Positions 4,074 to 41,266 of a stretch of DNA of 49,850 nucleotides are shown here, one piece after another (within the stretch, counting starts at the first letter, position 1; every line of letters begins with the position of its first letter). The DNA is from an uncultured Roseburia sp. (GTDB lineage: Bacteria > Bacillota_A > Clostridia > Lachnospirales > Lachnospiraceae), in the NCBI GenBank assembly GCA_900557275.1, contig USRX01000012.1:1-49850 (forward strand), given 5' to 3'. Made by a program: the position numbers and the translations under genes. The notes beneath the pieces were generated by a model that worked only from the letters and a program-made list of their open reading frames with translations, did no database searches and had not been told where the DNA came from.

Positions 4074-4102
4074 TTGACAAACGGAAACCAGATACTTATA
4101 AT
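4074..4102 (+). promoter_or_regulatory. Promoter of the ileS T-box transcript
   Basis: TTGACA (4074-4079) and TATAAT (4097-4102) are separated by 17 bases, a full consensus sigma-A promoter. A 9-bp inverted repeat, ATTCACTAT (4101-4109) with ATAGTGAAT (4122-4130), spans the end of the -10 box and the expected start site near 4109. It could act as an operator or as the first hairpin of the RNA. Confidence 0.85.
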
Positions 4103-4134
4103 TCACTATGTGTAGTTTTATATAGTGAATGACT

Positions 4135-4463
4135 AAGACGAAGACAGTAAGTAAAAATGGAACGCCACAGAGAGCCGGAGATGGTGCGAACCGGTGCAAG
4201 TAGATTTTTATGGAAGATCACTTCAGAGTTTCAGCCTGAAATGACAGGAAGCAGAAAGTAATAGATTGATTAGGTTCATTTTTCGATAAACAGGATATTT
4301 TATATATTCAGTTTACACGAATGGAATCCTTGCTTTCAGAGTAGGCGCTGACGTAATTCCCACGTTACAGGGAAACAGTATACGGTTTTGCACTGTGTAC
4401 GGGGAAAACAGGTGGTTAACGATGATGAGCTGTCGTCCTTTTTTCGGGACGTCAGCTTTTTTT
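4135..4463 (+). promoter_or_regulatory. T-box riboswitch (isoleucine specifier) upstream of ileS
   Basis: The leader opens with GACGAAGACAGTAAGTA and contains the Stem I elements AGAGAGCCGG and GGTGCGAACCGGTGC. An ATC triplet followed by A lies at 4217-4219 in the 3' side of Stem I, as expected for an isoleucine specifier. A T-box-like GGTGGTTAACG at 4411-4421 precedes a terminator. In this family, uncharged tRNA pairs with the specifier and T-box bulge and favours the antiterminator, so the downstream gene is expressed when charged tRNA-Ile is scarce. The specifier fits the IleRS encoded directly downstream. Confidence 0.88.
4428..4463 (+). terminator. T-box regulated terminator
   Basis: AGCTG-CGTCC pairs with GGGACG-CAGCT across a T-rich loop, and seven T residues follow. 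It overlaps the 3' side of the T-box antiterminator element, so the two folds should be mutually exclusive. Confidence 0.85.
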
Positions 4464-4504: not shown

Positions 4505-7500
4505 ATGTATAACAAAGTATCCACAAATCTGGATTTTGTTGAACGCGAGAAAAAAACGGAAGCATTCTGGAACGAGAATGACATCTTCCGTAAAAGCATG
4601 AAAAACAGAGAAGGCGGGGAAGTATATACTTTTTATGACGGACCGCCAACTGCAAATGGCAAACCACATATCGGTCATGTACTGACCCGTGTTATCAAAG
4701 ATATGATTCCGAGATACCAGACCATGAAGGGCAAAATGGTTCCTCGAAAAGCAGGGTGGGATACTCACGGACTGCCGGTAGAGCTGGAAGTAGAAAAACT
4801 TCTCGGACTGGACGGAAAAGAGCAGATTGAACAGTATGGTCTGGATCCGTTTATCAAAAAATGTAAAGAATCTGTATGGAAATACAAAGGAATGTGGGAG
4901 GATTTCTCCGGCACTGTAGGTTTCTGGGCAGATATGGAAGATCCATATGTTACCTATGATAACAACTTTATCGAGTCCGAGTGGTGGGCATTAAAAGAGA
5001 TTTGGAACAAAGGTCTTCTTTACAAAGGATTCAAGATTGTTCCTTACTGTCCGCGTTGCGGCACCCCGCTTTCTTCCCATGAGGTAGCACAGGGATACAA
5101 AGACGTCAAAGAACGTTCTGCCGTTGTAAGATTCAAAGTAAAAGATGAGGATGCATATTTCCTTGCATGGACCACCACACCGTGGACACTGCCATCCAAT
5201 GTTGCACTTTGTGTAAACCCGGAAGAAGTGTATGCAAAAGTAAAAGCAGCTGACGGATACACTTACTATATGGCAAAAGCGCTGTTGGATACCGTTCTCG
5301 GCAAACTGGCAGATGAAGAGTCTGGAAAACCGGCATACGAGATCATCGATACTTATACCGGCAAAAATCTGGAATACAAAGAGTATGAGCCGTTATTTGA
5401 CTGTGCTGTAGATATCTGTGAGAAACAGCATAAAAAAGGTTATTATGTAACATGTGCAGACTATGTTACATTGACAGACGGTACAGGAGTAGTTCATATC
5501 GCACCGGCATTTGGTGAAGATGATGCCCAGGTAGGACGCAGATATGATCTCCCGTTCGTACAGTTGGTAAACGGCAAAGGCGAGATGACAGAAGAGACTC
5601 CATATGCCGGCGTATTTGTGAAAAAAGCAGATCCGATGGTATTAAAGGATCTGGAAGAGAAAGAACTGCTGTTTGATGCACCAAAATTCGAGCACAGCTA
5701 TCCGCATTGCTGGAGATGCGACACACCGCTGATTTACTATGCAAGAGAATCCTGGTTCATCAAGATGACAGAAGTTAAAGATGATCTGGTAAGAAATAAC
5801 AATACTGTAAACTGGATTCCGGAATCTATCGGAAAAGGACGTTTCGGAGACTGGCTGGAGCATATTCAGGACTGGGGTATTTCCAGAAACCGTTACTGGG
5901 GTACTCCACTGAACATCTGGGTATGTGATGACTGTGGACATATGGAATCTGTAGGAAGCCGTGCAGAGCTTGCAGAACTCAGTGGAGATCCGAAGGCAGC
6001 AGAAGTAGAGCTTCACAGACCGTATATCGATCAGGTTACATTCAAATGCCCGCATTGTGGCAAGACTATGCACCGTGTACCGGAAGTTATCGACTGCTGG
6101 TTTGATTCCGGAGCAATGCCGTTTGCACAGCATCATTATCCGTTTGAAAATAAAGACAAATTTGAACAGCAGTTCCCGGCAAAATTTATCTCCGAGGCGG
6201 TAGACCAGACCCGTGGATGGTTCTACTCCCTGATGGCAGAGTCCACCCTGTTATTTAACAAAGCTCCGTATGAAAACGTAATCGTACTGGGTCATGTTCA
6301 GGATGAAAACGGTCAGAAGATGAGTAAATCCAAAGGAAATGCAGTTGATCCGTTTGATGCGCTGAAAACTTATGGCGCAGATGCGATCCGCTGGTATTTC
6401 TACATCAATTCCGCACCATGGCTGCCGAACCGTTTCCATGGCAAAGCCGTACAGGAAGGACAGCGGAAGTTCATGGGAACCCTGTGGAATACGTATGCAT
6501 TCTTTGTACTTTATGCAAATATTGATGAGTTTGATGCTACAAAATACACACTGGATTATGAGCAGCTTTCTGTTATGGACAAATGGTTGCTGTCAAAATT
6601 AAATTCTACCGTAAAAGCAGTGGATGAAAATCTTGGCTCATATAAGATTCCGGAGGCAGCAAGAGCACTTCAGGAGTTCGTAGACGATATGAGTAACTGG
6701 TATGTAAGACGCAGCCGTGAACGTTTCTGGGCAAAAGGCATGGAGCAGGATAAGATCAATGCATATATGACACTGTATACTGCACTGGTAACGATCTGCA
6801 AGACTGCAGCTCCGATGATCCCGTTCATGACAGAGGATATCTACCAGAATCTGGTAAGAAGTATTGATAAGGATGCTCCTGAAAGTATCCATCTCTGTGA
6901 CTTCCCGACAGTGGATGCATCCATGATCGATCCGGAACTGGAGAAAAACATGGATGAGGTTCTGAAAGTCGTAGTTATGGGAAGAGCCTGCAGAAATACC
7001 GCAAATATCAAAAACCGTCAGCCAATCGGAAACATGTATGTAAAAGCTCCGATGGAAGTGCCGGAATACTTTATCGAGATCATTGAAGATGAGCTGAATG
7101 TGAAGAAAGTGGCATTTACCGATGATGTAAGCGCTTATACAACCTATACGTTCAAACCGCAGCTTCGTACCGTAGGACCGAAATATGGTAAATTCCTCGG
7201 CAAGATCAAACAGGCTTTGGCAGAGGTAGATGGTCATGCTGCCATGGCAGAGCTGAAACAGAACGGCGTTCTGAGACTGGATATTCCGGATGCAGATGTT
7301 GAACTGACAGAGGATGATCTGCTGATCGATATGGTACAGACCGAAGGTTATGTGACAGAGGGCGACAATGAGATTACAGTTGTTCTGGATACAAACCTGA
7401 CACCGGAGCTTCTGGAAGAAGGTTTCGTCCGTGAGATCATCAGTAAAGTACAGACCATGCGTAAAGAGGCCGGTTTTGAAGTCATGGATAAGATCCTGCT

Positions 7501-10132
7501 TACCTATAAGGGAAATGACAAGATCAGTGGCATTATCGAAGCAAACCGTGCACAGATTCAGCATGACGTACTGGCTGTAGATATTCAGAGCGGCGAACTG
7601 AAAGGCTACAAGAAAGAATGGAATATTAATGGCCTTCAGGTGGAGCTGGGCGTGGAAAAGCAGAAAGAGAATTCTGCATTCGATAAAGAGGTTTTTCTTA
7701 AAACCGTAAAAGATAACGTGAAATCTATGTTTCGCAAAAAGCTGCGGGACGCTTCAAAGCAGGAAGTATTCCAGGCAGTATCTTTTGCGGTGAAAGACGT
7801 GATCATTGATCAGTGGCTTGCAACCCAGCATACTTTCGACAGCGAAGATCCAAAAATGGTATATTATATGTCCATGGAATTTCTGATGGGTCGTGCGCTG
7901 GGCAACAACCTGATCAATCTGACTGCTTATGATGAAGTAAAAGACGCTCTTGCAGAGATTGGTTTTGATCTGAACTGTATCGAAGATGAAGAACCGGATC
8001 CGGCACTTGGAAACGGTGGTCTTGGACGTCTGGCAGCCTGCTTCATGGAGTCGCTGGCAACTTTAGGATATCCGGCATATGGTTGTGGCATCCGTTACCG
8101 TTATGGCATGTTCAAACAGAAGATTGAGAATGGTTTCCAGGTAGAAGTACCGGATAACTGGCTGAAAAACGGATATCCGTTTGAACTTCGCAGACCGGAG
8201 CATACTTTTGAAGTAAAATTTGGCGGTTATGTACAGGCAGAGCAGCACAACGGACGTACTAAATTTGTTCAGAAAGACTACCAGTCTGTGCGCGCCGTTC
8301 CATACGATATGCCAATCATAGGTTACAATAACAACATGGTAAATACCCTGATGATCTGGGATGCAGAGCCGATCGAGTGCTTTGAGCTGGATTCCTTTGA
8401 CAAAGGCGATTACCGCAAGGCTGTAGAGCAGGAGAATCTTGCAAAGAACCTGGTAGACGTCCTTTATCCGAACGACAACCATGTATCCGGTAAAGAGCTG
8501 CGTCTGAAACAGCAGTACTTCTTTGTATCCGCCAGCGTACAGCGTGCCGTTGCCCGTTATAAAAAGTCACATCCAGATATCCGCAAGCTTTATGAAAAAG
8601 TGACCATTCAGATGAACGATACCCATCCGACCGTTGCAGTTGCGGAACTGATGCGTATACTTCTAGATGAGGAAGAGCTGGAGTGGGATGAGGCATGGGA
8701 AGTTACCACAAAAACCTGTGCATACACGAACCATACCATCATGTCTGAAGCACTGGAAAAATGGCCGATCGAGATCTTCTCACGGCTGCTTCCGAGAATC
8801 TATCAGATCGTTGAGGAAATTAACCGTCGGTTCCTGCTCAGCGTAGAAGAAAAATTTCCGGGTAACCAGTACAAGAAAGATAAGATGGCAATCCTGTTCA
8901 ACGGACAGGTAAGAATGGCGCACCTCGCCATCGTTGCCGGTTATTCTGTCAATGGTGTGGCAAGACTGCATACAGAGATCCTGAAAAATCAGGAATTAAA
9001 AGATTTCTACGAGATGTATCCGTGGAAATTTAATAACAAGACCAACGGTATTACTCAGAGAAGGTTTCTGTATCATGCAAATCCGCTGCTTTCCCAGTGG
9101 ATCAATGACAAGATCGGAGATGGATGGGTAACAGATCTGCCGCAGATGGAGAAACTGTTGCCGTATGTGGATGATGAACAGGCACAGAAAGAATTCATGG
9201 AGATCAAATACCAGAATAAAGTGCGTCTGGCAAAATATATCCAGAAACACAATGGCATCGAGGTAGATCCGGGTTCCATTTTCGATGTACAGGTAAAACG
9301 TCTGCATGAGTACAAACGTCAGCTGCTGAATATTCTTCATGTTATGTATCTGTATAACCGGATTAAAGAAAATCCGAATATGGACTTCCATCCGAGAACC
9401 TTTATCTTTGGCGCAAAAGCGGCAGCAGGTTACCGGATCGCAAAACTGACCATCAAGCTGATCAATTCTGTCGCAGATGTGATCAACAATGACAGCAGCA
9501 TTAATGGCAAGCTGAAAGTTGTATTTATCGAGGATTATAAAGTATCCAATGCAGAACTGATCTTTGCGGCAGCAGACGTCAGCGAGCAGATCTCTACCGC
9601 AAGTAAAGAGGCATCCGGTACAGGTAATATGAAATTCATGCTGAACGGTGCAGTTACCATCGGTACGATGGACGGTGCCAATGTGGAGATGGTAGAAGAA
9701 GTTGGAAATGAAAACATGTTCATCTTCGGTATGAACGCTGATGAAGTCATTGCCCATGAGAAGAACCGTGATTACAATCCGATGGACATCTACAACCATG
9801 ACGGACAGATACGTCAGGTACTGGATCAGCTGGTAGATGGAACTTATGCAAACGGAGACCGTGAGCTGTTCCGTGATCTGTATAATTCACTGCTGAATAC
9901 ACAGTGTACGCAGTTTGCAGATACCTACTTTAACCTGAAAGATTTCCGTTCCTATGCAGAAGCACAGGCGCGTGTGGGAGAAGCTTACAAAGACGAGAAA
10001 GGCTGGGCTAAGATGGCGATGCTGAATACTGCACATGTAGGCAAATTCTCATCCGACAGAACCATTCAGGAATATGTGGATGATATCTGGCATCTGGATA
10101 AGATCAAAGTAGAACTTAATGAAGAGCAGTAA
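4505..10132 (+). CDS. ileS-glgP: Isoleucyl-tRNA synthetase fused in frame to glycogen phosphorylase
   Basis: One 1875-codon frame contains two complete enzymes. Residues 1 to about 1053 are an IleS2-type isoleucyl-tRNA synthetase: HIGH at 55-58, an editing-domain TTPWTLPSN, KMSKS at 605-609, then the anticodon-binding and C-terminal domains. Residues from about 1059 to 1875 (817 residues, full family length) are an alpha-glucan phosphorylase: EPDPALGNGGLGRLAACF, MNDTHPTVAVAEL and GTGNMKF, with the predicted pyridoxal-phosphate lysine at 1710. The first half charges tRNA-Ile; the second releases glucose-1-phosphate from glycogen. In families known to me these are separate proteins. No linker, stop or obvious start codon separates them, although an internal GTG initiation site is possible. 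AAAGGAG precedes the ATG at 4505. The gene is controlled by the isoleucine T-box. Domain identities are very secure. Whether one polypeptide is made is uncertain, and a sequence error at the junction is a live alternative. Confidence 0.93.
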   Translation: MYNKVSTNLDFVEREKKTEAFWNENDIFRKSMKNREGGEVYTFYDGPPTANGKPHIGHVLTRVIKDMIPRYQTMKGKMVPRKAGWDTHGLPVELEVEKLLGLDGKEQIEQYGLDPFIKKCKESVWKYKGMWEDFSGTVGFWADMEDPYVTYDNNFIESEWWALKEIWNKGLLYKGFKIVPYCPRCGTPLSSHEVAQGYKDVKERSAVVRFKVKDEDAYFLAWTTTPWTLPSNVALCVNPEEVYAKVKAADGYTYYMAKALLDTVLGKLADEESGKPAYEIIDTYTGKNLEYKEYEPLFDCAVDICEKQHKKGYYVTCADYVTLTDGTGVVHIAPAFGEDDAQVGRRYDLPFVQLVNGKGEMTEETPYAGVFVKKADPMVLKDLEEKELLFDAPKFEHSYPHCWRCDTPLIYYARESWFIKMTEVKDDLVRNNNTVNWIPESIGKGRFGDWLEHIQDWGISRNRYWGTPLNIWVCDDCGHMESVGSRAELAELSGDPKAAEVELHRPYIDQVTFKCPHCGKTMHRVPEVIDCWFDSGAMPFAQHHYPFENKDKFEQQFPAKFISEAVDQTRGWFYSLMAESTLLFNKAPYENVIVLGHVQDENGQKMSKSKGNAVDPFDALKTYGADAIRWYFYINSAPWLPNRFHGKAVQEGQRKFMGTLWNTYAFFVLYANIDEFDATKYTLDYEQLSVMDKWLLSKLNSTVKAVDENLGSYKIPEAARALQEFVDDMSNWYVRRSRERFWAKGMEQDKINAYMTLYTALVTICKTAAPMIPFMTEDIYQNLVRSIDKDAPESIHLCDFPTVDASMIDPELEKNMDEVLKVVVMGRACRNTANIKNRQPIGNMYVKAPMEVPEYFIEIIEDELNVKKVAFTDDVSAYTTYTFKPQLRTVGPKYGKFLGKIKQALAEVDGHAAMAELKQNGVLRLDIPDADVELTEDDLLIDMVQTEGYVTEGDNEITVVLDTNLTPELLEEGFVREIISKVQTMRKEAGFEVMDKILLTYKGNDKISGIIEANRAQIQHDVLAVDIQSGELKGYKKEWNINGLQVELGVEKQKENSAFDKEVFLKTVKDNVKSMFRKKLRDASKQEVFQAVSFAVKDVIIDQWLATQHTFDSEDPKMVYYMSMEFLMGRALGNNLINLTAYDEVKDALAEIGFDLNCIEDEEPDPALGNGGLGRLAACFMESLATLGYPAYGCGIRYRYGMFKQKIENGFQVEVPDNWLKNGYPFELRRPEHTFEVKFGGYVQAEQHNGRTKFVQKDYQSVRAVPYDMPIIGYNNNMVNTLMIWDAEPIECFELDSFDKGDYRKAVEQENLAKNLVDVLYPNDNHVSGKELRLKQQYFFVSASVQRAVARYKKSHPDIRKLYEKVTIQMNDTHPTVAVAELMRILLDEEELEWDEAWEVTTKTCAYTNHTIMSEALEKWPIEIFSRLLPRIYQIVEEINRRFLLSVEEKFPGNQYKKDKMAILFNGQVRMAHLAIVAGYSVNGVARLHTEILKNQELKDFYEMYPWKFNNKTNGITQRRFLYHANPLLSQWINDKIGDGWVTDLPQMEKLLPYVDDEQAQKEFMEIKYQNKVRLAKYIQKHNGIEVDPGSIFDVQVKRLHEYKRQLLNILHVMYLYNRIKENPNMDFHPRTFIFGAKAAAGYRIAKLTIKLINSVADVINNDSSINGKLKVVFIEDYKVSNAELIFAAADVSEQISTASKEASGTGNMKFMLNGAVTIGTMDGANVEMVEEVGNENMFIFGMNADEVIAHEKNRDYNPMDIYNHDGQIRQVLDQLVDGTYANGDRELFRDLYNSLLNTQCTQFADTYFNLKDFRSYAEAQARVGEAYKDEKGWAKMAMLNTAHVGKFSSDRTIQEYVDDIWHLDKIKVELNEEQ
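7638..7681 (+). other. IleRS-phosphorylase junction with a possible internal GTG start
   Basis: AGGTGGAG (7638-7645) lies 6 bases before an in-frame GTG at 7652, which would begin a phosphorylase with VEKQKENSAFDK at its N-terminus. The IleRS C-terminus appears to end at the KQ encoded by 7658-7663. The next codon is AAA (7664), one base from TAA. The following AAAGAGAATTCTGCATTC looks like a decayed ribosome site followed by a lost ATG just before the conserved FDKE of the phosphorylase. That history is inference. Confidence 0.4.
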
Positions 10133-19693: not shown

Positions 19694-20614
19694 CTAGTTG
19701 CCGAGTTCCAGCATACGGTCCAGACAATTTTTCGCACGCACACGAACCTCATCAGTAAGTTCGATCTCTTCACCGCCAATGCCTGCAACGCAGTTGTACA
19801 CATCAGCCAGCGTCGTCAGCTTCATATTGTGACAGACGCAATCTTTTGAAAGGGCATAGAACTGCTTGTCTGGACATGCAAACTGCAGATGCTGTACGAT
19901 GCTGTTTTCTGTACCGATGATAAATTCTTTCGCTTCGCTTTTTTTCGCAAAATCCATAATACCGGTGGTGCTTCCTACATAATCAGCTGCTTCAGATACT
20001 TCCGGCAGACATTCCGGATGAACTAAAAGAAGTGCTTCCGGATGCAGGGCTCTTGCTTTTTTTACATCCTTTTCGGTAATACGGACATGGGTCGGGCATC
20101 CACCGTGAACCAGTTTGATGTTTTTCTCAGGGATCTGGTCAGCCACCCATTTTCCAAGATTGCAGTCCGGTACAAATAAGATGTCTTTGCTGTCCAGATT
20201 ACGGATGACTTTTACTGCGGAAGAAGAAGTCACACAGACATCACAGACAGTTTTCAACTCAGCTGTAGTATTAATATAAGCGGCTACCATATAGCCTGGA
20301 TTCTGCGCTTTTAATGCCTGGATCAGATCAACATCCATCTGTGTTGCCATAGGACATCCGGCTTCCGGGTGGGAAAGGATGACTTTCTTTTCTGGGGAAA
20401 GGATCTTGACCGTTTCTGCCATAAAGCGGACACCGCACATCAGCACCGTTTTTGCTTCGGATTTGGCAGCCTGTACGCTCAGTCCGTAAGAATCGCCTAC
20501 ATAATCAGCGATTTCCCAGATATCATGGCTCTGATAAGCGTGAGCCAGAATACAGACATCATTTTCTTTTTTTAGTTTCAGGATCTCATCCTGCAATTCT
20601 CTTGTTGTATACAT
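19694..20614 (-). CDS. nadA: Quinolinate synthase A
   Basis: This 306-residue iron-sulfur enzyme condenses iminoaspartate from NadB with dihydroxyacetone phosphate to quinolinate. It shows the three-fold repeated NadA layout with ILAHAYQSHDIWEIADYVGDS near the N-terminus. The expected 4Fe-4S cysteine ligands are visible in EAGCPMA (Cys87), VHPEC (Cys202) and the late CHNMKLTTL (Cys261). The length fits the family. GGAG precedes the ATG on the minus strand. It diverges from nadB, with a perfect consensus promoter, and the partner genes nadB and nadC lie across the shared regulatory region. Confidence 0.94.
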   Translation of the reverse strand: MYTTRELQDEILKLKKENDVCILAHAYQSHDIWEIADYVGDSYGLSVQAAKSEAKTVLMCGVRFMAETVKILSPEKKVILSHPEAGCPMATQMDVDLIQALKAQNPGYMVAAYINTTAELKTVCDVCVTSSSAVKVIRNLDSKDILFVPDCNLGKWVADQIPEKNIKLVHGGCPTHVRITEKDVKKARALHPEALLLVHPECLPEVSEAADYVGSTTGIMDFAKKSEAKEFIIGTENSIVQHLQFACPDKQFYALSKDCVCHNMKLTTLADVYNCVAGIGGEEIELTDEVRVRAKNCLDRMLELGN

Positions 20615-20643
20615 AATCTTAATCTCCAGATAATTTTTTTGAC

Positions 20644-20672
20644 ATTATACAAAAAGAATGTAAAGCTGTCAA
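20644..20672 (-). promoter_or_regulatory. Promoter of nadA
   Basis: On the minus strand TTGACA (20667-20672) and TATAAT (20644-20649) are exactly 17 bases apart, a full consensus promoter. Confidence 0.88.
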
Positions 20673-20682
20673 CTCATATGTA

Positions 20683-20705
20683 AATATAGGTGTCTTGTCA
20701 TGTTA
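20683..20705. promoter_or_regulatory. Candidate NiaR operator between nadA and nadB
   Basis: ATAGGTGTCTTGTCATG lies between the two divergent -35 boxes and overlaps the nadB -35 hexamer. Its core TGTCTTGTCA is a partial palindrome (TG-C--G-CA). The repressor NiaR is encoded in the same transcription unit. Assignment to NiaR rests on position and gene content and not on a checked motif model. Confidence 0.5.
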
Positions 20706-20723
20706 AAAACTTTGTGTTATAAT
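20695..20723 (+). promoter_or_regulatory. Promoter of nadB-nadC-niaR
   Basis: TTGTCA (20695-20700) and TATAAT (20718-20723) are separated by 17 bases. The leader to the nadB start is about 210 bases and contains a stem at 20826-20866. Confidence 0.82.
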
Positions 20724-20825
20724 AACAAAACGTTGGGCTTGAAAGGCTCATTTTGTATCGAAAGAATTCTGACAGAAAACGGTTTTGGGTAATCGTTATG
20801 TCATTGTGGAATGTAAAGTAATCTT

Positions 20826-20866
20826 CCTGTCAGGAAAGTCCTATCTTAGATATGATTGCTGACAGG
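20826..20866 (+). promoter_or_regulatory. Leader hairpin upstream of nadB
   Basis: CCTGTCAG and CTGACAGG form a perfect 8-bp stem across a 25-base loop in the nadB leader. A related TCTGACAG copy lies about 60 bases further upstream. No U-tract follows, and it matches no riboswitch I know. Confidence 0.4.
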
Positions 20867-20942
20867 ACGTTATTAATAATAAGGCAGTAAGTCAGAATGA
20901 AAACCCGGGAATACCAGGAAAAGAGAAAGTCAGGTAAAGAAA

Positions 20943-22262
20943 ATGAAGACAGATATTTTGATCATAGGAAGCGGCTGCTCAGGTCTGTACTGCGCTCTGC
21001 ACCTTGATTCGGAGAAAAAGATCACGATGCTTTCCAAAGGAAGTCTTGATAAGAGTGATTCCTATCTTGCACAGGGCGGCATGTGCATGTTGAAAAACGA
21101 GGAAGATTACGACAGTTATTTTGAAGATACTATGCGTGCCGGTCATTATGAAAATGATAAGACATCCGTAGACATCATGATCCGTTCTTCTCAGGATGTA
21201 GTAAAAGACCTTTTAAGTTATGACGTGGATTTTCAGAGGGAAGAAGATGGAACTCTGGCATTTACGAGAGAAGGTGCACACTCTGATAAGAGAATCCTGT
21301 TCCACGAAGATATTACGGGAAAAGAAATTACAACCAAACTGCTGGCACAGGTACAGCAGAAAGAAAACGTGACCATATTGGAGTATACTGCGATGGTAGA
21401 CCTCATTTCTCAGGGAAATACCTGTCGCGGCGCAGTGATTCGTCATCCGGATGGAACTGTGGAAGAGGTAGAGGCGCAATATGTAGTCCTTGCCTGTGGC
21501 GGTATCGGCGGTCTGTATCAGCATTCCACAAATTTTCATTTACTGACCGGAGATGGCCTGGCAGCAGCGATTCGTCATGGCGTGGCATTAAAAGATATCA
21601 ATTACATCCAGATCCACCCAACCACATTATATTCTGAACAGGATGAGGAAAAAAGTTTCCTTATTTCTGAGTCTGTCCGTGGAGAAGGTGCAAAACTGTA
21701 TGATAAAAATGGAAAACGTTTTGTAAATGAGCTGCTTCCAAGAGATGTGCTGACTGGCGAGATCCATAAACAGATGGAAAAAGACGGAACTAAATTTGTA
21801 TGGGAAGATCTTCGCACCATTCCGTCAGAAGAGCTGAAAACACATTTTCCGAATATTGTTGAGCATTGTCGTAAAATGGGATATGATGTTATGAAAGAGT
21901 GCATCCCGGTCGTTCCTGCACAGCACTATTTTATGGGAGGCATCCGTGTCAACCATGTGAGCAAGACTACGATGGACAGACTGTATGCAGTAGGAGAGAC
22001 GGCATGCAACGGTGTTCACGGAAGGAACCGGCTGGCAAGCAATTCCCTTTTGGAGAGTCTGGTATTTGCAAAGCGTGCGGCAAAAGATATTAATGCCACC
22101 TATCATCCGACCGAGCAGAAAATGCCAAATATAGATCTTACATCTGAAAAATATACAGATGCTGAAAAGATTGCCAGTGAAAACAGAGCCCTTGTATTGG
22201 AAGAAATCCGACGGGCAGAAGAAAATATGATGGAAAGTCAGAGGAATGTAGCGAATGTTTGA
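20943..22262 (+). CDS. nadB: L-aspartate oxidase
   Basis: This 439-residue flavoprotein oxidises L-aspartate to iminoaspartate, the first step of de novo NAD synthesis. The N-terminal FAD site is ILIIGSGCSGLYCAL. The succinate dehydrogenase-like core shows SYLAQGGM, ISESVRGEGAKLYD, VPAQHYFMGGIRV and GETACNGVHGRNRLASNSLLE. It is shorter than the E. coli enzyme (about 540), because most of the C-terminal helical domain is missing, as in many Clostridia. It overlaps nadC by 8 bases, implying translational coupling, and niaR follows. Repression by niacin through NiaR is expected. Confidence 0.93.
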   Translation: MKTDILIIGSGCSGLYCALHLDSEKKITMLSKGSLDKSDSYLAQGGMCMLKNEEDYDSYFEDTMRAGHYENDKTSVDIMIRSSQDVVKDLLSYDVDFQREEDGTLAFTREGAHSDKRILFHEDITGKEITTKLLAQVQQKENVTILEYTAMVDLISQGNTCRGAVIRHPDGTVEEVEAQYVVLACGGIGGLYQHSTNFHLLTGDGLAAAIRHGVALKDINYIQIHPTTLYSEQDEEKSFLISESVRGEGAKLYDKNGKRFVNELLPRDVLTGEIHKQMEKDGTKFVWEDLRTIPSEELKTHFPNIVEHCRKMGYDVMKECIPVVPAQHYFMGGIRVNHVSKTTMDRLYAVGETACNGVHGRNRLASNSLLESLVFAKRAAKDINATYHPTEQKMPNIDLTSEKYTDAEKIASENRALVLEEIRRAEENMMESQRNVANV

Positions 22263-23112
22263 TCCGATTACAATGAAATTAAATGTAGAACCGCTGATCG
22301 AGAGCGCTCTGCGGGAAGATATTACCAATGAAGATGTTTCTACTAACAGTGTTATGCCGGAAGCAAAAAAAGGAGAGGCAGATCTGCTTTGTAAACAGGA
22401 TGGAATCATCTGTGGACTGCAGATTTTTACAAGAGTTTTTACGCTGCTTGATCCGGATACGGAAGTAGAGCTGTATGTAAAAGATGGAGAGGCAGTGAAA
22501 AACGGTCAGCTCATGGCAAAGGTCAGAGGCGATATGCGCGTCATCCTCTGCGGAGAGCGTACTGCACTGAATTATCTGCAGCGAATGAGCGGTGTGGCAA
22601 CTATGGCAAGAGAGATGTCCGACAGTCTGGAAGGCACAGGAATCAAACTGCTGGATACGAGAAAGACCACGCCGAACAACCGTATTTTTGAAAAATATGC
22701 GGTAAAGACAGGTGGCGGTAACAATCACAGATTAAATCTTTCCGATGGCGTCATGTTGAAAGATAACCACATCGGAGCAGCAGGCGGCGTGGCAAAAGCA
22801 GTAAAAATGGCGAAAGAGTATGCGCCATTTGTACGTAAGATTGAAGTAGAGACAGAAAATATTGACATGGTCAGAGAAGCTGTGGAAGCAGGGGCAGATA
22901 TCATCATGCTTGACAATATGGATCATGACCAGATGAAAGAGGCAGTGGAACTCATTGCCGGAAGAGCTGAGATTGAGATTTCCGGAAATGTGACCAAAGA
23001 GAAGATCGCACAGATCGCAGATCTTGGTGTCGACTATATTTCCAGTGGCGCATTAACTCATTCTGCACCAATCCTTGACATTTCTCTGAAAAACCTGCAT
23101 CCTATAGATTAG
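22255..23112 (+). CDS. nadC: Nicotinate-nucleotide diphosphorylase (quinolinate phosphoribosyltransferase)
   Basis: This 285-residue enzyme converts quinolinate and PRPP to nicotinate mononucleotide with release of CO2. Family motifs are the N-terminal ALREDITNEDVSTN, the core LDTRKTTPNNRIFEKYAVKTGGGNNHR with its phosphate- and quinolinate-binding arginine and lysine residues, LSDGVMLKDNH, and the barrel strands ADIIMLDNM and EISGNVT. It starts inside the last codons of nadB and is followed by niaR after 53 bases. An alternative ATG at 22273 is possible but lacks a better ribosome site. Confidence 0.94.
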   Translation: MFDPITMKLNVEPLIESALREDITNEDVSTNSVMPEAKKGEADLLCKQDGIICGLQIFTRVFTLLDPDTEVELYVKDGEAVKNGQLMAKVRGDMRVILCGERTALNYLQRMSGVATMAREMSDSLEGTGIKLLDTRKTTPNNRIFEKYAVKTGGGNNHRLNLSDGVMLKDNHIGAAGGVAKAVKMAKEYAPFVRKIEVETENIDMVREAVEAGADIIMLDNMDHDQMKEAVELIAGRAEIEISGNVTKEKIAQIADLGVDYISSGALTHSAPILDISLKNLHPID

Positions 23113-23165
23113 AAAGTTTCCATATAGTTATATTTTTAAAATAGGAATAAAGGAGTATCTTAGAA

Positions 23166-23717
23166 ATGAGCGGAAGTGAAAGAAGAAAAGAAATCATAAA
23201 GATCCTTTCTTCGGAAGGAAAGGCAGTGTCGGGAAAGGCGCTGGCAAACTGGTTGGAAGTGAGCCGCCAGGTCATTGTACAGGATATTGCTTTACTACGG
23301 GCTAACGGAACCTCAATTCTCTCTACCAATAATGGATATGTGATTCCAAAACAGAAAGAGATCAGCAGAGTATTCAAGATGCATCATACCGATGAACAGG
23401 TGGAAGATGAGATGCAGACCATCGTAGATTATGGTGGAAGCATGGTGGATGTATTCGTATATCATAAAGTCTATGGCATCTTAAAAGCACCGATGAACAT
23501 CCATTCCAGACTGGATATTGAGGCATTTGTAGAAGAACTGAAGACTGGAAAATCCAGTCTTTTGAAAAATATCACATCAGATTATCATTATCATACCGTG
23601 TCAGCGAGAAGTGAGCAGATGCTGGATGTGATTCAGGAAAAGCTTCAGGAAAAGGGGTTTTTAGCACAGCTGCGAGATTATGAGCCTATCAATTTCTGGG
23701 AGAGGGAGACGTCTTGA
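23166..23717 (+). CDS. niaR: Niacin-responsive transcriptional repressor NiaR (YrxA; HTH-3H domain)
   Basis: This 183-residue protein has an N-terminal helix-turn-helix of the biotin-repressor type (GKALANWLEVSRQVIVQDIALLR). A 3H domain with the three characteristic histidine segments follows: VFVYHKVYG, MNIHSRLD and YHYHTVS. In Bacillus and Clostridium relatives this protein binds nicotinic acid through the metal-holding 3H domain and represses NAD synthesis genes. It is the last gene of nadB-nadC-niaR, so it likely controls its own transcript and nadA through the site at 20683-20705. Confidence 0.92.
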   Translation: MSGSERRKEIIKILSSEGKAVSGKALANWLEVSRQVIVQDIALLRANGTSILSTNNGYVIPKQKEISRVFKMHHTDEQVEDEMQTIVDYGGSMVDVFVYHKVYGILKAPMNIHSRLDIEAFVEELKTGKSSLLKNITSDYHYHTVSARSEQMLDVIQEKLQEKGFLAQLRDYEPINFWERETS

Positions 23718-26938: not shown

Positions 26939-27466
26939 ATGCAACAGGGACTGATTCACATATACGAAGGAAACGGAAAAGGGAAAACCACTGCCGGGGT
27001 TGGTCTGGCGCTGCGTTGCGCAGGACATGGCTTTCCTGTGGTTTACAGCCAGTTTTTAAAGGATGGATCGTCAGGAGAGATCGGTCTGCTTCGCCAGATT
27101 CCGCAGATCACGGTTATGGTCAATGAAAAATCCTTTGGTTTTACGTTCCGGATGAATGAGGAACAGAAGAAAGAGGCTACAGGCAGTTATGAAACGCTTC
27201 TGGAAAGCGTGATCCGGCAGACGGTTTCCGGCGGATGTCGTCTGCTGGTGCTGGATGAAGTGCTGGATGCCTGCAACTGCGGCATGGTTTCCACAGAACG
27301 TCTGGTGGATTTCCTGAAACAGAAGCCGGAGGAACTGGAAGTGGTCATGACCGGACGGAATCCGGCGCAGGAGCTGGTGGAGCTGGCAGATTACATTACA
27401 TATATGAAAAAAATAAAGCATCCATTTGACCGCGGCATATATGCCCGGGAGGGAATCGAGCACTAG
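26939..27466 (+). CDS. cobO: Corrinoid (cob(I)yrinic acid a,c-diamide) adenosyltransferase, CobA/CobO type
   Basis: This 175-residue ATP-dependent enzyme attaches the 5'-deoxyadenosyl group to reduced cobalt in corrinoids. It has the P-loop GNGKGKTT at residues 12-19, the Walker B-like RLLVLDEVLDAC, and the characteristic VVMTGRNPAQEL. The C-terminus ending KKIKHPFDRGIYAREGIE matches the CobA/BtuR family's AFKAGVKAQKGIEF-type ending. AGGAG precedes the ATG. It is followed after 45 bases by hemB and hemL, which make the tetrapyrrole precursor, so the cluster supplies and finishes cobalamin-type cofactors. Confidence 0.9.
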   Translation: MQQGLIHIYEGNGKGKTTAGVGLALRCAGHGFPVVYSQFLKDGSSGEIGLLRQIPQITVMVNEKSFGFTFRMNEEQKKEATGSYETLLESVIRQTVSGGCRLLVLDEVLDACNCGMVSTERLVDFLKQKPEELEVVMTGRNPAQELVELADYITYMKKIKHPFDRGIYAREGIEH

Positions 27467-27511
27467 TATAGTTTTATATAGAAAAATAACAACAAAAACA
27501 GGAGAATAAAA

Positions 27512-28495
27512 ATGGATATGGCCAATCGTCCGAGAAGATTACGGACAAGCAGTAGATTAAGAAAAATCGTAAGAGAGACCAGAATGGACAAATCCTCTCT
27601 GGTGTATCCGATGTTTATCGTAGAAGGAAATAATATCAAAGAAGAGATCCCTTCCATGTACGGACAGTACCGTTACAGCGTGGACCGTATGGAAGAGAAG
27701 CTGATCGAGCTCGCAGATGCAGGTGTTGGAAGCGTCATGCTTTTTGGAATCCCGGATTTGAAAGATGAAGTGGGAAGTCAGGCATATGCAGAGGACGGCA
27801 TTGTGCAGAAAGGCTTCCGTAAGGCAAAAGAAGTATGCCCGGATCTCTATTACATCGGAGACGTGTGCATGTGTGAGTATACATCCCATGGACATTGCGG
27901 CGTGCTTTGCGGACATGATGTGGACAATGATAAGACGCTGGAATTGTTGGCAAAGACGGCAGTATCCCAGGCGCAGGCAGGCGCCGACATGGTAGCACCA
28001 TCTGATATGATGGACGGTCGTGTGGGTTACATCCGTCAGGCATTGGATGCCAACGGTCTGATCAATACACCGATCATGGCATATTCAGCCAAATTTGCTT
28101 CTGCATTTTACGGTCCGTTCCGTGATGCGGCAGATTCTGCACCGGCATTTGGAGACCGCAAGACCTATCAGATGGATTTTCATAACCGCAGAGAAGCGCT
28201 GAAAGAAGTGCTGATGGATGTGGAAGAAGGTGCAGACATCGTTATGGTAAAACCGGCGATGGCTTATGGCGATCTGATCCGTGAAACGAGAGATATGGTG
28301 GATCTTCCGGTGGCAGCTTATAGCGTCAGCGGTGAATATGCCATGATCAAGACCACAGCGAAAGCAGGATTTATCGATGAGACTTCCATCATGTGCGAGG
28401 TAGCCACAAGCGCATACCGTGCAGGTACAGATATCTATATTACATATTTTGCAAAAGAACTGGCAAAATGCATGGATGAAGGGAGAATTGGTTAA
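27512..28495 (+). CDS. hemB: Porphobilinogen synthase (delta-aminolevulinate dehydratase), first copy
   Basis: This 327-residue enzyme condenses two molecules of 5-aminolevulinate to porphobilinogen, the first common tetrapyrrole. The two active-site lysines are in AKFAS (Lys194) and MVKPAMAY (Lys247). A zinc-binding cysteine set is present as [11 protein letters not shown] (Cys119, 121, 129), indicating the zinc-dependent form. AGGAG precedes the ATG at 27512. Its stop codon abuts the ATG of hemL with no gap. A second hemB lies at 49184. Confidence 0.95.
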   Translation: MDMANRPRRLRTSSRLRKIVRETRMDKSSLVYPMFIVEGNNIKEEIPSMYGQYRYSVDRMEEKLIELADAGVGSVMLFGIPDLKDEVGSQAYAEDGIVQKGFRKAKEVCPDLYYIGDVCMCEYTSHGHCGVLCGHDVDNDKTLELLAKTAVSQAQAGADMVAPSDMMDGRVGYIRQALDANGLINTPIMAYSAKFASAFYGPFRDAADSAPAFGDRKTYQMDFHNRREALKEVLMDVEEGADIVMVKPAMAYGDLIRETRDMVDLPVAAYSVSGEYAMIKTTAKAGFIDETSIMCEVATSAYRAGTDIYITYFAKELAKCMDEGRIG

Positions 28496-29800
28496 ATGGC
28501 AGCACATGTGACAGATGCGATCGCGCGTTCCGAACAGCTTTTCAGAGAGGCGGAAAAATATATTCCCGGCGGTGTGAATTCTCCGGTCAGAGCTTTTGGT
28601 TCTATCGGTTCTGTACCGCGTTTTATCACAAAAGCCGATATGGCAAATATCTGGGATGAAGATGGAAACGAATACATTGATTATATTGGCTCCTGGGGTC
28701 CGATGATCCTGGGACACAATCATCCGGCGGTCTTAAAAGCTGTGACCGAGCAGGCAAAATACGGTCTGAGCTACGGCGCAGCCACTGCCATTGAAGTGGA
28801 AATGGCAAAACTTATGTGCAATATGGTACCGTCACTGGAAATGGTTCGCATGGTCAATTCCGGAACGGAAGCGGTAATGAGCGCGATCCGTGTGGCGAGA
28901 GGCTATACCCGCAGAGATAAGATCATCAAATTTATGGGCTGTTATCACGGGCATTCCGATGGACTGCTTGTAAAAGCCGGCTCCGGCGTTATGACAGCAG
29001 GAGTTCCGGACAGTCTCGGAGTGCCGGCCGGTTGTACACAGGATACACTGAGTGCAGTCTATAATGATCTGGACAGTGTCCGTGCCCATTTTGAACGTTG
29101 TGGCGAGGAAATTGCAGCGATCATTGTAGAGCCGGTGGGTGCAAATATGGGAACCGTTTTGCCAAAAGAAGGATTTTTGCAGGGTCTTCGGGATATCTGT
29201 GACCAGTATGGCACATTGCTTATCTTTGATGAAGTCATTACCGGATTCCGTCTGCAGGCAGATGGCGCGCAGGGACGGTTTGGTGTGCGGCCGGATCTGA
29301 CGACGTATGGCAAGATCATCGGCGCAGGAATGCCGGTAGGCGCATATGGCGGACGCAGGGATGTCATGGAAATGGTATCTCCGGTGGGCGCTGTATATCA
29401 GGCAGGCACGTTAAGCGGCAATCCGGTGGCTATGGCAGCCGGACTGGCCCAGCTGACGATTTTAAACAGCGATCCGATGTATTATGAGAAATTAAATGAA
29501 AAAGGCGACTGGTTCTTCGAGGAGTTACAGAAGATCGTGAAAAATGCAGGACTGCCCTATCAGGTTAACCATATCGGTTCTCTTGGAAGCTTGTTTTTTA
29601 CCGATCAGGAAGTCGTAGACTATGAGAGTGCCAAGACCTCTGATACAAAAGCCTATGCAGCGTATTGTAATTACATGCTGAATCATGGTATTTACCTTGC
29701 ACCGGCGCAGTTCGAGGCAATGTTTATTTCCATGGCACACACATCAGCCCAGTTGGAAGAGACACTGGAAGTGGCAGCAGATTATTTCCAGGGCAGATAA
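28496..29800 (+). CDS. hemL: Glutamate-1-semialdehyde 2,1-aminomutase
   Basis: This 434-residue PLP enzyme converts glutamate-1-semialdehyde to 5-aminolevulinate, the substrate of HemB, showing that the organism uses the C5 pathway. Motifs: YIPGGVNSPVRAFG, VNSGTEAVMSAIRVARG, KFMGCYHGHSDGLLVKAGSG, LLIFDEVITGFR, and the cofactor lysine 273 in TTYGKIIGAG. Translation is coupled to hemB with zero spacing, and the ribosome site GGGAG is inside hemB. hemA, which makes its substrate from glutamyl-tRNA, is not in the window. Confidence 0.95.
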   Translation: MAAHVTDAIARSEQLFREAEKYIPGGVNSPVRAFGSIGSVPRFITKADMANIWDEDGNEYIDYIGSWGPMILGHNHPAVLKAVTEQAKYGLSYGAATAIEVEMAKLMCNMVPSLEMVRMVNSGTEAVMSAIRVARGYTRRDKIIKFMGCYHGHSDGLLVKAGSGVMTAGVPDSLGVPAGCTQDTLSAVYNDLDSVRAHFERCGEEIAAIIVEPVGANMGTVLPKEGFLQGLRDICDQYGTLLIFDEVITGFRLQADGAQGRFGVRPDLTTYGKIIGAGMPVGAYGGRRDVMEMVSPVGAVYQAGTLSGNPVAMAAGLAQLTILNSDPMYYEKLNEKGDWFFEELQKIVKNAGLPYQVNHIGSLGSLFFTDQEVVDYESAKTSDTKAYAAYCNYMLNHGIYLAPAQFEAMFISMAHTSAQLEETLEVAADYFQGR

Positions 29801-38122: not shown

Positions 38123-38315
38123 AAAAGTATCTTTCATGTTTTTAGTTGCATTATATATGCAGAACATCTTGTTAGATATATAAAGATTTGGAAGAAAATT
38201 ATATCTGAAAAGAATGCAGAACCATACATAAAAGTTTTAGCATAAAAAATCATAGAATGATTATTTTTATATAGAAACAAAAACAGAGGATTACATGAGA
38301 GAGGAGGGATGTCAT

Positions 38316-40097
38316 ATGGCTTATTATTCGGATGAGCTGATTGAAGAGGTCAGATCCAGAAATGATATCGTAGATGTGATCTCCGGTTATGTCCGTCTGC
38401 AGAAAAAGGGAAGTACATATTTTGGACTGTGCCCGTTTCACAATGAAAAGACGCCGTCCTTTTCCGTATCTCCGGGAAAACAGATGTATTACTGTTTTGG
38501 ATGCGGCGCCGGTGGAAATGTATTTACGTTTATTATGCAATACGAGAATTATACCTTTCCGGAAGCGATGGAGATGCTGGCAGACCGTGCAGGCATTGAA
38601 TTGCCCAAACAGGAAATGTCAGCAGAGCAGCGTCGTGCCGCAGACCGAAGAGCAAGGATACTGGAGGTCAATAAGCTGGCTGCAAAATATTTCTATATGC
38701 TGCTTCAGAACCCGCAGGGAGAGCTTGCCAGAAAGTATTTTGAAAAACGACAGCTGACCCGGGAGACCATCACACATTTTGGCCTGGGATATTCGGATAA
38801 GTACGGTGACGACCTCTACCGGTATCTGAAAAGGGCAGGCTACGAGGACGACCTTCTCAAAGATAGCGGACTGGTAACCATTGATGAACGGCGGGGCGGA
38901 CGGGATAAGTTCTGGAACCGCGCCATGTTCCCAATCATGGATGCCAATAACAGAGTAATCGGTTTTGGCGGTCGTGTTATGGGAGACGGCGAACCAAAAT
39001 ATCTGAATTCCCCGGAGACCATTATCTTTGATAAGAGCCGGAATCTGTACGGACTGAACTTTGCAAGGCAGTCCAGAAAACCGCAGATCCTGCTTTGTGA
39101 GGGTTATATGGACGTGATCGCATTGCACCAGGCGGGATTTGACAATGCAGTGGCATCTCTCGGAACGGCGTTTACATCAGGGCATGCAAGCCTGTTGAAA
39201 CGTTATACAAAAGAAGTGTACTTGACTTTCGACAGTGACGGCGCCGGTGTGCGGGCTGCGCTTCGTGCGATTCCGATCCTAAAAGAGGCGGGGCTGACGG
39301 CAAAGGTCATCAACATGCAGCCTTACAAAGACCCGGACGAATTTATCAAAGCCCTTGGGGCAGAGGAATATCAGAAGCGGATCGATGAGGCGGAAAACAG
39401 TTTTCTGTTTGAAGTGCGGATCCTGGAGCGGGATTACAACATGCAGGATCCGGAGAGCAAGACCGCCTTTTTCCAGAAAGTGGCAAAGAAGATACTGAAT
39501 TTCCCGGAGGAGCTGGAACGGGAAAATTATATAGAAGCCATTGCTGCAAAATATCAGGTCGGATTTGAACAACTGCGCAGTATGGTAAAACATTTTGGCA
39601 CCCGGGGCGTGCAGACGCCGCAGGAACGTCGGCCGCTGCAAAGTGGCATACAGAAAGAAAAGAAAAAAACAGATGGAAAGAAGCAGCCACAACAGCTGCT
39701 TCTGACCTGGATGATCGAGGATACCCGGCTGTTTTCCGTGATCGAGCCTTATGTGGCTCCGGAAGATTTTACCGAACCTTTGTACCGCGAAGTGGCGCAG
39801 ATGCTTTATGGGCAGTTTCACAGCGGAACGGTAAATCCGGCGGAGATCATCAGCCGTTTTACAGATGAAGAGCAGCAAAAAGAGATCGCTGCCCTGTTTC
39901 ACGCAAGAATTTATCCCATTGAGGAGAAGGCAGAACGGGAAAAGGCGTTGGCAGAGACGATCCTTCGGGTAAAACAGAACAGTCTGGATTATCGCAGCGA
40001 ACATCTGGAACCGACAGACCTTGCGGGATTACAGCAGATCATTAATGACCGCAAAAAGCTGGACGGAATGCGTAATTTGCATATTTCCCTTGATTAA
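38316..40097 (+). CDS. dnaG: DNA primase
   Basis: This 593-residue enzyme synthesises RNA primers at the replication fork. The N-terminal CHC2 zinc finger is FGLCPFHNEKTPSFSVSPGK followed by YYCFGCGAGGN. The catalytic core includes RVIGFGGRVMGDGEPKYLNS and the TOPRIM motifs LLCEGYMDVIALHQAG and YLTFDSDGAG. The C-terminal helicase-binding region starts near residue 450 after a basic linker (KEKKKTDGKKQPQ). AGGAGGG lies before the ATG at 38316; the earlier ATG at 38295 lacks one. rpoD follows 37 bases later. Confidence 0.95.
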   Translation: MAYYSDELIEEVRSRNDIVDVISGYVRLQKKGSTYFGLCPFHNEKTPSFSVSPGKQMYYCFGCGAGGNVFTFIMQYENYTFPEAMEMLADRAGIELPKQEMSAEQRRAADRRARILEVNKLAAKYFYMLLQNPQGELARKYFEKRQLTRETITHFGLGYSDKYGDDLYRYLKRAGYEDDLLKDSGLVTIDERRGGRDKFWNRAMFPIMDANNRVIGFGGRVMGDGEPKYLNSPETIIFDKSRNLYGLNFARQSRKPQILLCEGYMDVIALHQAGFDNAVASLGTAFTSGHASLLKRYTKEVYLTFDSDGAGVRAALRAIPILKEAGLTAKVINMQPYKDPDEFIKALGAEEYQKRIDEAENSFLFEVRILERDYNMQDPESKTAFFQKVAKKILNFPEELERENYIEAIAAKYQVGFEQLRSMVKHFGTRGVQTPQERRPLQSGIQKEKKKTDGKKQPQQLLLTWMIEDTRLFSVIEPYVAPEDFTEPLYREVAQMLYGQFHSGTVNPAEIISRFTDEEQQKEIAALFHARIYPIEEKAEREKALAETILRVKQNSLDYRSEHLEPTDLAGLQQIINDRKKLDGMRNLHISLD

Positions 40098-40134
40098 GGA
40101 TAAAATATAAACAATTCATGGAAGGATGGATAAA

Positions 40135-41262
40135 ATGGCAGAACATATTGACCAGAAGAGTGCAGAAATGGCAGCAAAGTTTTCACAGAAATTACATCAG
40201 CTGTTAGAGCTTGCAAAAAAGAAAAAAAATGTACTGGAATATCAGGAAATCAGTGATCATTTCAAAGATATGCAGCTTGGAGAGGATCAGTTTGAAAAAA
40301 TCCTGGATTACCTTGAACAGAATAATATTGATGTCCTTCGTATCACAGAAGAAGAGGATGACAGTGAGGTACTGATCGATGAAGAGGATGAGATCGAAGT
40401 AGAAAATATTGATCTGTCTGTTCCGGACGGAATTAGCATCGAAGATCCGGTGCGTATGTATCTGAAAGAGATCGGTAAAGTTCCGCTTCTGACTGCGGAA
40501 GAAGAGATTGAGCTTGCACAGCGTATGGAAGAGGGAGATCAGGAAGCAAAGAAACGTCTTGCTGAGGCAAACCTTCGTCTCGTAGTTAGTATTGCAAAAC
40601 GTTATGTTGGACGTGGCATGCTGTTCCTTGATCTGATCCAGGAGGGAAACCTCGGTCTGATCAAAGCAGTAGAGAAGTTTGATTACCGCAAAGGATATAA
40701 ATTCAGTACCTATGCTACATGGTGGATCCGTCAGGCGATCACAAGAGCAATCGCAGATCAGGCAAGAACGATCCGTATCCCGGTTCATATGGTTGAAACG
40801 ATTAATAAACTGATCCGTGTGTCCAGACAGTTATTGCAGGAGCTTGGCCGTGAACCCACTCCGGAAGAGATCGCAGAAGAGATGGACATGCCGGTGGAGC
40901 GTGTGCGTGAGATCCTGAAGATCTCCCAGGAACCGGTTTCCCTGGAGACTCCAATTGGCGAAGAAGAAGACAGCCACCTTGGCGACTTTATTCAGGATGA
41001 CAATGTGCCGGTACCGGCAGAGGCAGCTGCATTTACCCTGTTAAAAGAACAGCTTGTAGAGGTACTTGGAACACTGACAGAGCGTGAGCAGAAAGTGCTG
41101 AGACTTCGATTTGGTCTGGATGACGGTCGTGCCAGAACTCTGGAAGAAGTTGGTAAAGAATTCAGCGTTACCCGTGAGCGTATCCGTCAGATAGAAGCAA
41201 AAGCATTACGTAAACTTCGTCATCCGAGCAGAAGCCGCAAATTAAAAGATTATCTGGACTAA
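40135..41262 (+). CDS. rpoD: Primary sigma factor RpoD (SigA)
   Basis: This 375-residue housekeeping sigma factor directs RNA polymerase to -10/-35 promoters. Region 1.2 begins [17 protein letters not shown], region 2 contains [26 protein letters not shown] and the -10-contacting [17 protein letters not shown], and region 4 ends with the -35 helix-turn-helix [20 protein letters not shown]. The N-terminus is short, as in Gram-positive SigA. GAAGGA lies 8 bases before the ATG at 40135; the ATG at 40126 overlaps that site. It forms the macromolecular synthesis unit with dnaG and is followed by trmK after 4 bases. Confidence 0.96.
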
Positions 41263-41266
41263 GGCT

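Follow-up and report, generated by a model that had tools for sequence, protein, structure and literature searches.

In the window (the whole stretch of DNA that was analysed, 49,850 nucleotides from an uncultured Roseburia sp.), one open reading frame encodes a full isoleucyl-tRNA synthetase (IleRS) followed by a full glycogen phosphorylase (GlgP), as confirmed by its translation and by profile searches with TIGR00392, TIGR02093 and Pfam. We hold with good confidence (a probability of about 0.78) that this frame is a real fusion, specific to its lineage, of ileS with the adjacent glgP; in many Lachnospiraceae the two genes form a pair that follows a T-box-like leader. The product is likely a predicted 216 kDa chain of two enzymes, perhaps accompanied by free GlgP.

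A single frame encodes two complete enzymes

The features of the locus are collected in Table 1. A sequence-only reading of this DNA had proposed a single frame of 1875 codons without a stop, with the catalytic motifs and the full family length present in both halves, and all of this was borne out. In the profile search of the fused frame, TIGR00392 (ileS) matched residues 5-849 with 972.7 bits (cut-off 621.4) and TIGR02093 matched residues 1061-1864 with 1178.2 bits (cut-off 552.9), the latter over model positions 2-804 of 804. Pfam placed tRNA-synt_1 in the IleRS half, Anticodon_1 at residues 692-841, DUF5915 at 858-1052 and the Phosphorylase domain at 1149-1864 (model positions 1-713 of 713). 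HIGH and KMSKS, the signatures of class-I synthetases, are found at residues 55 and 605, and the GlgP motifs ALGNGGLGRLA and GTGNMKFMLNG at residues 1167 and 1705. The lysine of the GTGNMK motif is K1710, which we take to be the PLP lysine of the glycogen phosphorylase family. The GlgP half is intact, and it is probably active. The computed mass of the chain is 215.9 kDa, so that the figure of about 210 kDa given earlier was near the mark but slightly low. With the base composition of the window, 1875 open codons would occur by chance with a probability of about 1e-48; a junction of about 12 codons, on the other hand, stays open by chance about half of the time, and thus it is the relatives, not the openness of the junction alone, that provide the evidence for the fusion.

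Table 1. Positions of the features of the ileS-glgP locus in the window
Feature	Position	Strand	Remarks
Sigma-70-like promoter	4074..4102	+	TTGACA-17-TATAAT, 12/12 matches
T-box-like leader upstream of ileS	4126..4443	+	RF00230, 62.4 bits, E 3.7e-12
Terminator-like hairpin of the leader, then T run	4434..4451	+	
Fused ORF ileS-glgP	4505..10132	+	1875 aa, ATG start, TAA stop; translation without internal stop
IleRS half	4505..7660	+	residues 1-1052; anticodon-binding and DUF5915 C-terminal domains; putatively type 2
Candidate internal Shine-Dalgarno	7638..7645	+	AGGTGGAG; predicted -7.0 kcal/mol, upstream of GTG 7652
Candidate internal GTG start	7652..7654	+	residue 1050; would give an 826-aa GlgP of 95.5 kDa
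Junction, short linker QKENS	7661..7675	+	residues 1053-1057; no stop codon, no ATG
Glycogen phosphorylase half	7673..10129	+	about residues 1057-1875

The top PDB match of the IleRS half is 8c8v (1051.7 bits over residues 11-1024), which is presumably a type-2 bacterial IleRS. No cysteine is present in residues 842-1052. The C-terminal Cys-4 zinc cluster is missing from type-2 IleRS (PMC4861432). By the 8c8v match and the Cys-free C-terminus, the IleRS half looks like the type-2, eukaryote-like (ileS2) form. It was not identified as MupA or MupB, as the scores against NF000257 and NF000258 (1023.1 and 1013 bits) are below the exception-level cut-off of 1900. The protein of the window is thus like a type-2 IleRS in its 8c8v match, its TIGR00392 score and its lack of cysteines at 842-1052, but a type-2 IleRS stops at about residue 1050, whereas this one runs on into a whole second enzyme. 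The second half in turn resembles the glycogen/starch/alpha-glucan phosphorylases of TIGR02093 in its full-length match, its PLP-lysine motif and its modelled structure, but it has no ATG of its own and its N-terminus is joined to IleRS. A synthetase with an unrelated enzyme domain is also described by the name of NF040702 (IleRS with N-acetyltransferase domain); here, however, IleRS is joined to a whole glycogen phosphorylase, and the window scores 344 bits in that family against a cut-off of 1999.

A structure model covering residues 846-1875 (mean pLDDT 79.3, pTM 0.70) shows the IleRS part ending in a strand, followed by a low-confidence linker, with pLDDT below 50 at residues 1054-1057 (209-212 of the model), and then the first helix of GlgP. 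The best 50 structure matches of the model are all GlgPs, with TM-scores (by target) of 0.91-0.94. GlgP domains also occur in further long proteins of the protein collection (P0007, P0008, P0009, P0012 and others); many of those listed join GlgP with PF02446, which we take to be 4-alpha-glucanotransferase. In P0008 and P0009 the GlgP is joined to SecA-like domains, and these two may be chimeras.

The ileS-glgP gene pair and its leader

In a scan of species genomes glgP was found directly 3' of ileS on the same strand in 78 of the 80 loci obtained (the best 80 of 592), the exceptions being L068 and L070. Further loci were then added and duplicates taken out, which gave 165 distinct junctions, picked by similarity to the query and hence not a census: 150 are separate pairs, 11 are fused (the window included) and four have no GlgP within the piece. 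As glgP stands behind ileS in 161 of these 165, the fusion is not a random join. An ATG could be recognised in 138 of the 150 separate pairs; the genes overlap in 23 of the 138, the gap is at most 50 nt in 94 and at most 200 nt in 137, and the median gap is 22 nt. Among the matches listed (E up to 1e-150) for a class-wide sample of 60 genomes, only that of Eubacterium ramulus (G001) has the two genes adjacent. Not every member of the family has the pair, since one genome present in both the class-wide and the family samples (G208) has ileS and glgP on different contigs. Three contigs of a viral collection (L139, L140, L141) encode relatives of the window's IleRS with 63-79% identity; they are possibly misassigned bacterial DNA, and they are uninformative on the neighbouring gene, as L139 and L140, which are two of the four junctions without a GlgP, break off at the stop of ileS and L141 holds residues 1-232 only.

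Upstream of the frame a leader resembles a T-box. Its match covers all positions of the RF00230 model but, at 62.4 bits against a gathering score of 93, misses the curated threshold. By eye, its specifier looks like AUC (Ile). Matches below 93 bits were obtained in seven of seven related loci (L054, L150, L183, L093, L094, L178, L182), and a scan at the gathering threshold gave none in eight loci (L063, L183, L054, L009, L034, L040, L042, L047). We therefore speak of a T-box-like leader, a call which rests on scores that are sub-threshold but significant. The promoter of Table 1 is the sole site with 12/12 matches, although promoter-like sites in the region are not in excess (15 against 14.2 in shuffles), and terminator-like sites are likewise not above chance (4 against 5.1 expected from shuffles).

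The junction in the window and in its nearest relatives

In the tree the rows nearest to the window are L131, L132, E. ramulus L054 and L055, and L208 from the sample of that genus. In this part of the tree, ileS and glgP are separate in 21 of 21 loci examined (L131, L132, L072 and another 18 that come from 20 genomes of the genus of E. ramulus), where they overlap by 1, 4, 8, 11 or 20 nt and have a TTAGGAG-like Shine-Dalgarno within the last ileS codons. One of these, L072, had been considered as a fused locus and was rejected, as its genes are separate with an 8-nt overlap. The matches listed for the genus of E. ramulus (20 genomes) include no fused one, and the smallest well-supported set around the window comprises 22 rows with the window as its sole fused row. 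E. ramulus and its relatives thus have the same two genes in the same order, with a T-box-like leader in L054, but as separate overlapping genes, whereas in the window both the stop and the ATG are gone. Its junction reads GTG GAA AAG CAG AAA GAG AAT TCT GCA TTC, in which TTAGGAG is absent as well. Relative to L054 it is shorter by a net 2 nt and differs by several substitutions; a long homopolymer is absent.

In the ancestor of the species, ileS and glgP probably shared a few bases (TAATG or ATGA), like the genes of its nearest relatives today, so that a ribosome at the end of ileS could have begun again at glgP. Minor alterations of the junction would then have taken away the stop of ileS along with the ATG of glgP and brought both genes into one frame. 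The comparison shows the end states at the junction and not the path between them; this cannot be rebuilt because the relatives are at most 85-88% identical at the protein level, which leaves room for ordinary divergence. The closest matches are 88% identical for genome loci, 85-86% for separate GlgPs and 80% for fused proteins. Ribosomes should now make the 1875-residue chain, with IleRS and GlgP connected through a short flexible linker, and some free GlgP may also arise from the internal GTG. The fusion would most likely keep the stoichiometry and the regulation of the old gene pair, and a new activity is not required.

Fused frames recur in other lineages

As a refutation of the fusion, the sequence-only reading had named relatives that show only two separate proteins. 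Such is the case for the 21 nearest loci but not for the wider family, in which fused frames without a stop were found in 10 further genomes besides the window. In the genus of G365 three of six genomes are fused, namely G365 (L063/L092/L138), G400 (L150) and G401 (partial, L153), and the genes are separate in G052, G399 and G402. In the Hungatella-like genus of G398, seven of 26 genomes are fused (G405, G406, G407, G408, G410, G425 and, partially, G398) and 15 are separate, while G403, G413, G416 and G421 were not judgeable. In addition, the protein clusters P0002-P0006 hold proteins of 1890-1902 aa with IleRS followed by GlgP (20+7+48+154+4 = 233 members, which may overlap the fused genomes).

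A FastTree phylogeny was built from 157 rows, 10 of them fused, with L153 left out as too short. In the subtrees, the Hungatella-like clade, the genus of G365 and the window lie apart from one another. The fusion trait changed at least five times on the tree, and the well-supported branches alone force five changes. With a separate root, the five changes correspond to three gains and two re-splits in the preferred and most parsimonious reading; a history of gains only would take six changes and one of losses only 21, and a reading with five separate gains was rejected. Within the Hungatella-like clade separate L187 and L188+L189 stand among fused rows, and L187, L188 and L189 (G426) look like re-splits beside fused sisters.

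Some details of these junctions may be recorded here. In L188 (G409) the ileS frame passes the glgP ATG in another frame, with a 32-nt overlap. L187 (G404) meets a TGA, and by eye the length of its junction differs from that of L180 by 2 nt. The junctions of L178, L179, L180 and L181 contain a run of 8-9 A in the last ileS codons just before the linker, and by eye one extra A in the L178 run would end IleRS at once. Slippage at the A run in these four loci could toggle between fused and separate products.

One product or two

It is possible that the long frame exists but GlgP is made mainly as a free protein by internal initiation, at GTG 7652 in the window and at an ATG elsewhere, in which case the C-terminal extension of IleRS would be a tolerated by-product of the loss of a stop codon. 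This explanation overlaps with the one preferred here and differs in which product matters. Support comes from the other fused loci. Close to the former start of glgP, nine of nine loci scored have an in-frame ATG with a predicted anti-Shine-Dalgarno pairing of -9.2 to -12.1 kcal/mol, and in the tenth (L153) AGGAGG and ATG are visible by eye. The score ignores spacing, however, and in the Hungatella-like loci the distance from the Shine-Dalgarno to the ATG is long, about 11-12 nt by eye; some of these loci also have other strong in-frame candidates.

L063 and L150, at a dS of about 0.8-1.0, match at 51/51 nt of the junction that holds AGGAGG and ATG, a level which only 7 of 1876 windows along the pair reach. 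L180 and L181 are identical over 60/60 nt (15 of 1878 windows are as high), in this case for a close pair with a dS of about 0.3. Between L178 and L179, in contrast, the junction shows no special conservation, 820 of 1881 windows being as high.

At the window's own junction there is no ATG, and GTG 7652, the best candidate nearby, ranks 5 of 89 in-frame start-like codons by predicted pairing; one of the four that score better is the true start. Its value resembles that at the glgP ATG of the unfused relatives, which is -6.8 to -7.6 kcal/mol in 20 of 21 and -12.9 in the other. It should be noted that ribosomes translating the long frame would make the fusion anyway. Taken together, mainly free GlgP is a serious contender, to which we give somewhat less than even odds. 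The fusions of the G365 genus probably give both the long chain and free GlgP, and the other fused lineages lend some support to free GlgP from an internal start. The split after translation that the sequence-only reading had offered as a possibility gained no support here.

A sequencing or assembly error is unlikely

A local error could have removed a stop or a frameshift from two genes that are truly separate and overlapping, as in E. ramulus. Such an error would agree with the 21 of 21 unfused nearest loci, among which the window is a fused singleton in its sub-clade; in addition, neither an independent copy of its junction nor a second assembly carrying it was found in the protein and genome collections searched. 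On the other hand, a single miscalled base is unlikely to explain the junction, where the stop and the ATG are both absent and several bases differ; the net change of 2 nt comes with several substitutions away from any long homopolymer, though some of these substitutions may be ordinary divergence. Among 30 other window ORFs selected for a scan, 29 have a Pfam match and no gene is obviously broken. The fused frames of the other lineages come from separate assemblies. We consider a local sequencing or assembly error unlikely, and prefer a genuine fusion. An in-frame joining error had earlier been named as the main alternative; it is made unlikely because the two genes are natural neighbours, the junction differs by several bases and the fusion recurs elsewhere. 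An assembly chimera of distant genes was rejected, since ileS and glgP are natural neighbours.

Constraint, gene copies and a possible functional link

Hits over the TIGR00392 cut-off were exactly one per genome in eight of eight genomes tested (their completeness is not given), and in seven of these, G365, G400, G406, G407, G410, G425 and G408, the sole hit lies within the fused frame. A second IleRS that would make the fused copy dispensable was not found in any of the eight. By analogy with these fused relatives, the IleRS activity of the window's protein is probably essential, as it would be the only one. For six pairs of fused loci dN/dS was 0.02-0.05 in the IleRS half and 0.01-0.06 in the GlgP half, rough ratios in that dS exceeds 1 in several pairs, and these low values indicate that both halves are maintained in the fused relatives. 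A pseudogene was accordingly rejected for those relatives by dN/dS (0.01-0.06), and for the window by its intact motifs only.

A second GlgP (41-49% identity) is listed for five of six genomes of the G365 genus and for 23 of the 26 Hungatella-like ones, in some of the latter as fragments. In the E. ramulus genus a second, distant GlgP was found in only three of 20 genomes (G001, G160, G442) among the matches listed, and the ileS-linked GlgP may often be the sole one there. Should the organism of the window resemble the majority of its closer relatives, it may have no GlgP of this family besides the fused one.

The fusion could also have been selected because a single particle would then combine isoleucine charging with the use of glycogen, through allostery, localisation to glycogen or fixed stoichiometry. 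To our knowledge there is no pathway link between isoleucine charging and glycogen breakdown. The frequency of the pair in Lachnospiraceae, the T-box-like leader in the window and at seven other loci at the low threshold, and the three separate fusions of the most parsimonious history speak for selection. But recurrent fusion is to be expected of genes that nearly touch in the same orientation, and the separate L187, L188 and L189 among the fused Hungatella-like rows suggest that a fusion is easily lost. Moreover, with the second GlgP in most genomes of the two fused genera, these bacteria need not depend on the fused copy, although the E. ramulus genus, with its three of 20, stands in contrast. 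A selected link is in our opinion improbable, and slightly less probable still is a selected bifunctional enzyme, in which binding or charging of tRNA-Ile alters GlgP activity or the synthetase is carried to glycogen. If true, the bifunctional enzyme would tie amino-acid supply and the use of a carbon store in one molecule, and it would have arisen three times because the genes already shared a T-box-like leader.

No published IleRS-GlgP fusion was found by titles and abstract openings, most subscription journals being out of reach, and the question why so many Lachnospiraceae have glgP in this place, after ileS and its T-box-like leader, did not come up in the literature searched. The genuine fusion preferred here would be a case of a single-copy synthetase with a full C-terminal metabolic enzyme, apparently gained in three lineages, and it offers a natural experiment on how genes that overlap become fused proteins and revert. 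For annotation it is a warning that fused frames at this locus are not automatically assembly errors.

Other genes of the window

A cluster for NAD synthesis lies at 19694-23717, with NadA on the minus strand, followed on the plus strand by an FAD-binding protein, quinolinate phosphoribosyl transferase and an HTH-3H protein. At 26939-29800 a corrinoid adenosyltransferase, a delta-aminolevulinic acid dehydratase and a class-III aminotransferase adjoin, and at 38295-41980 DNA primase, a sigma-70 factor and a TrmK-type tRNA methyltransferase stand in a row.
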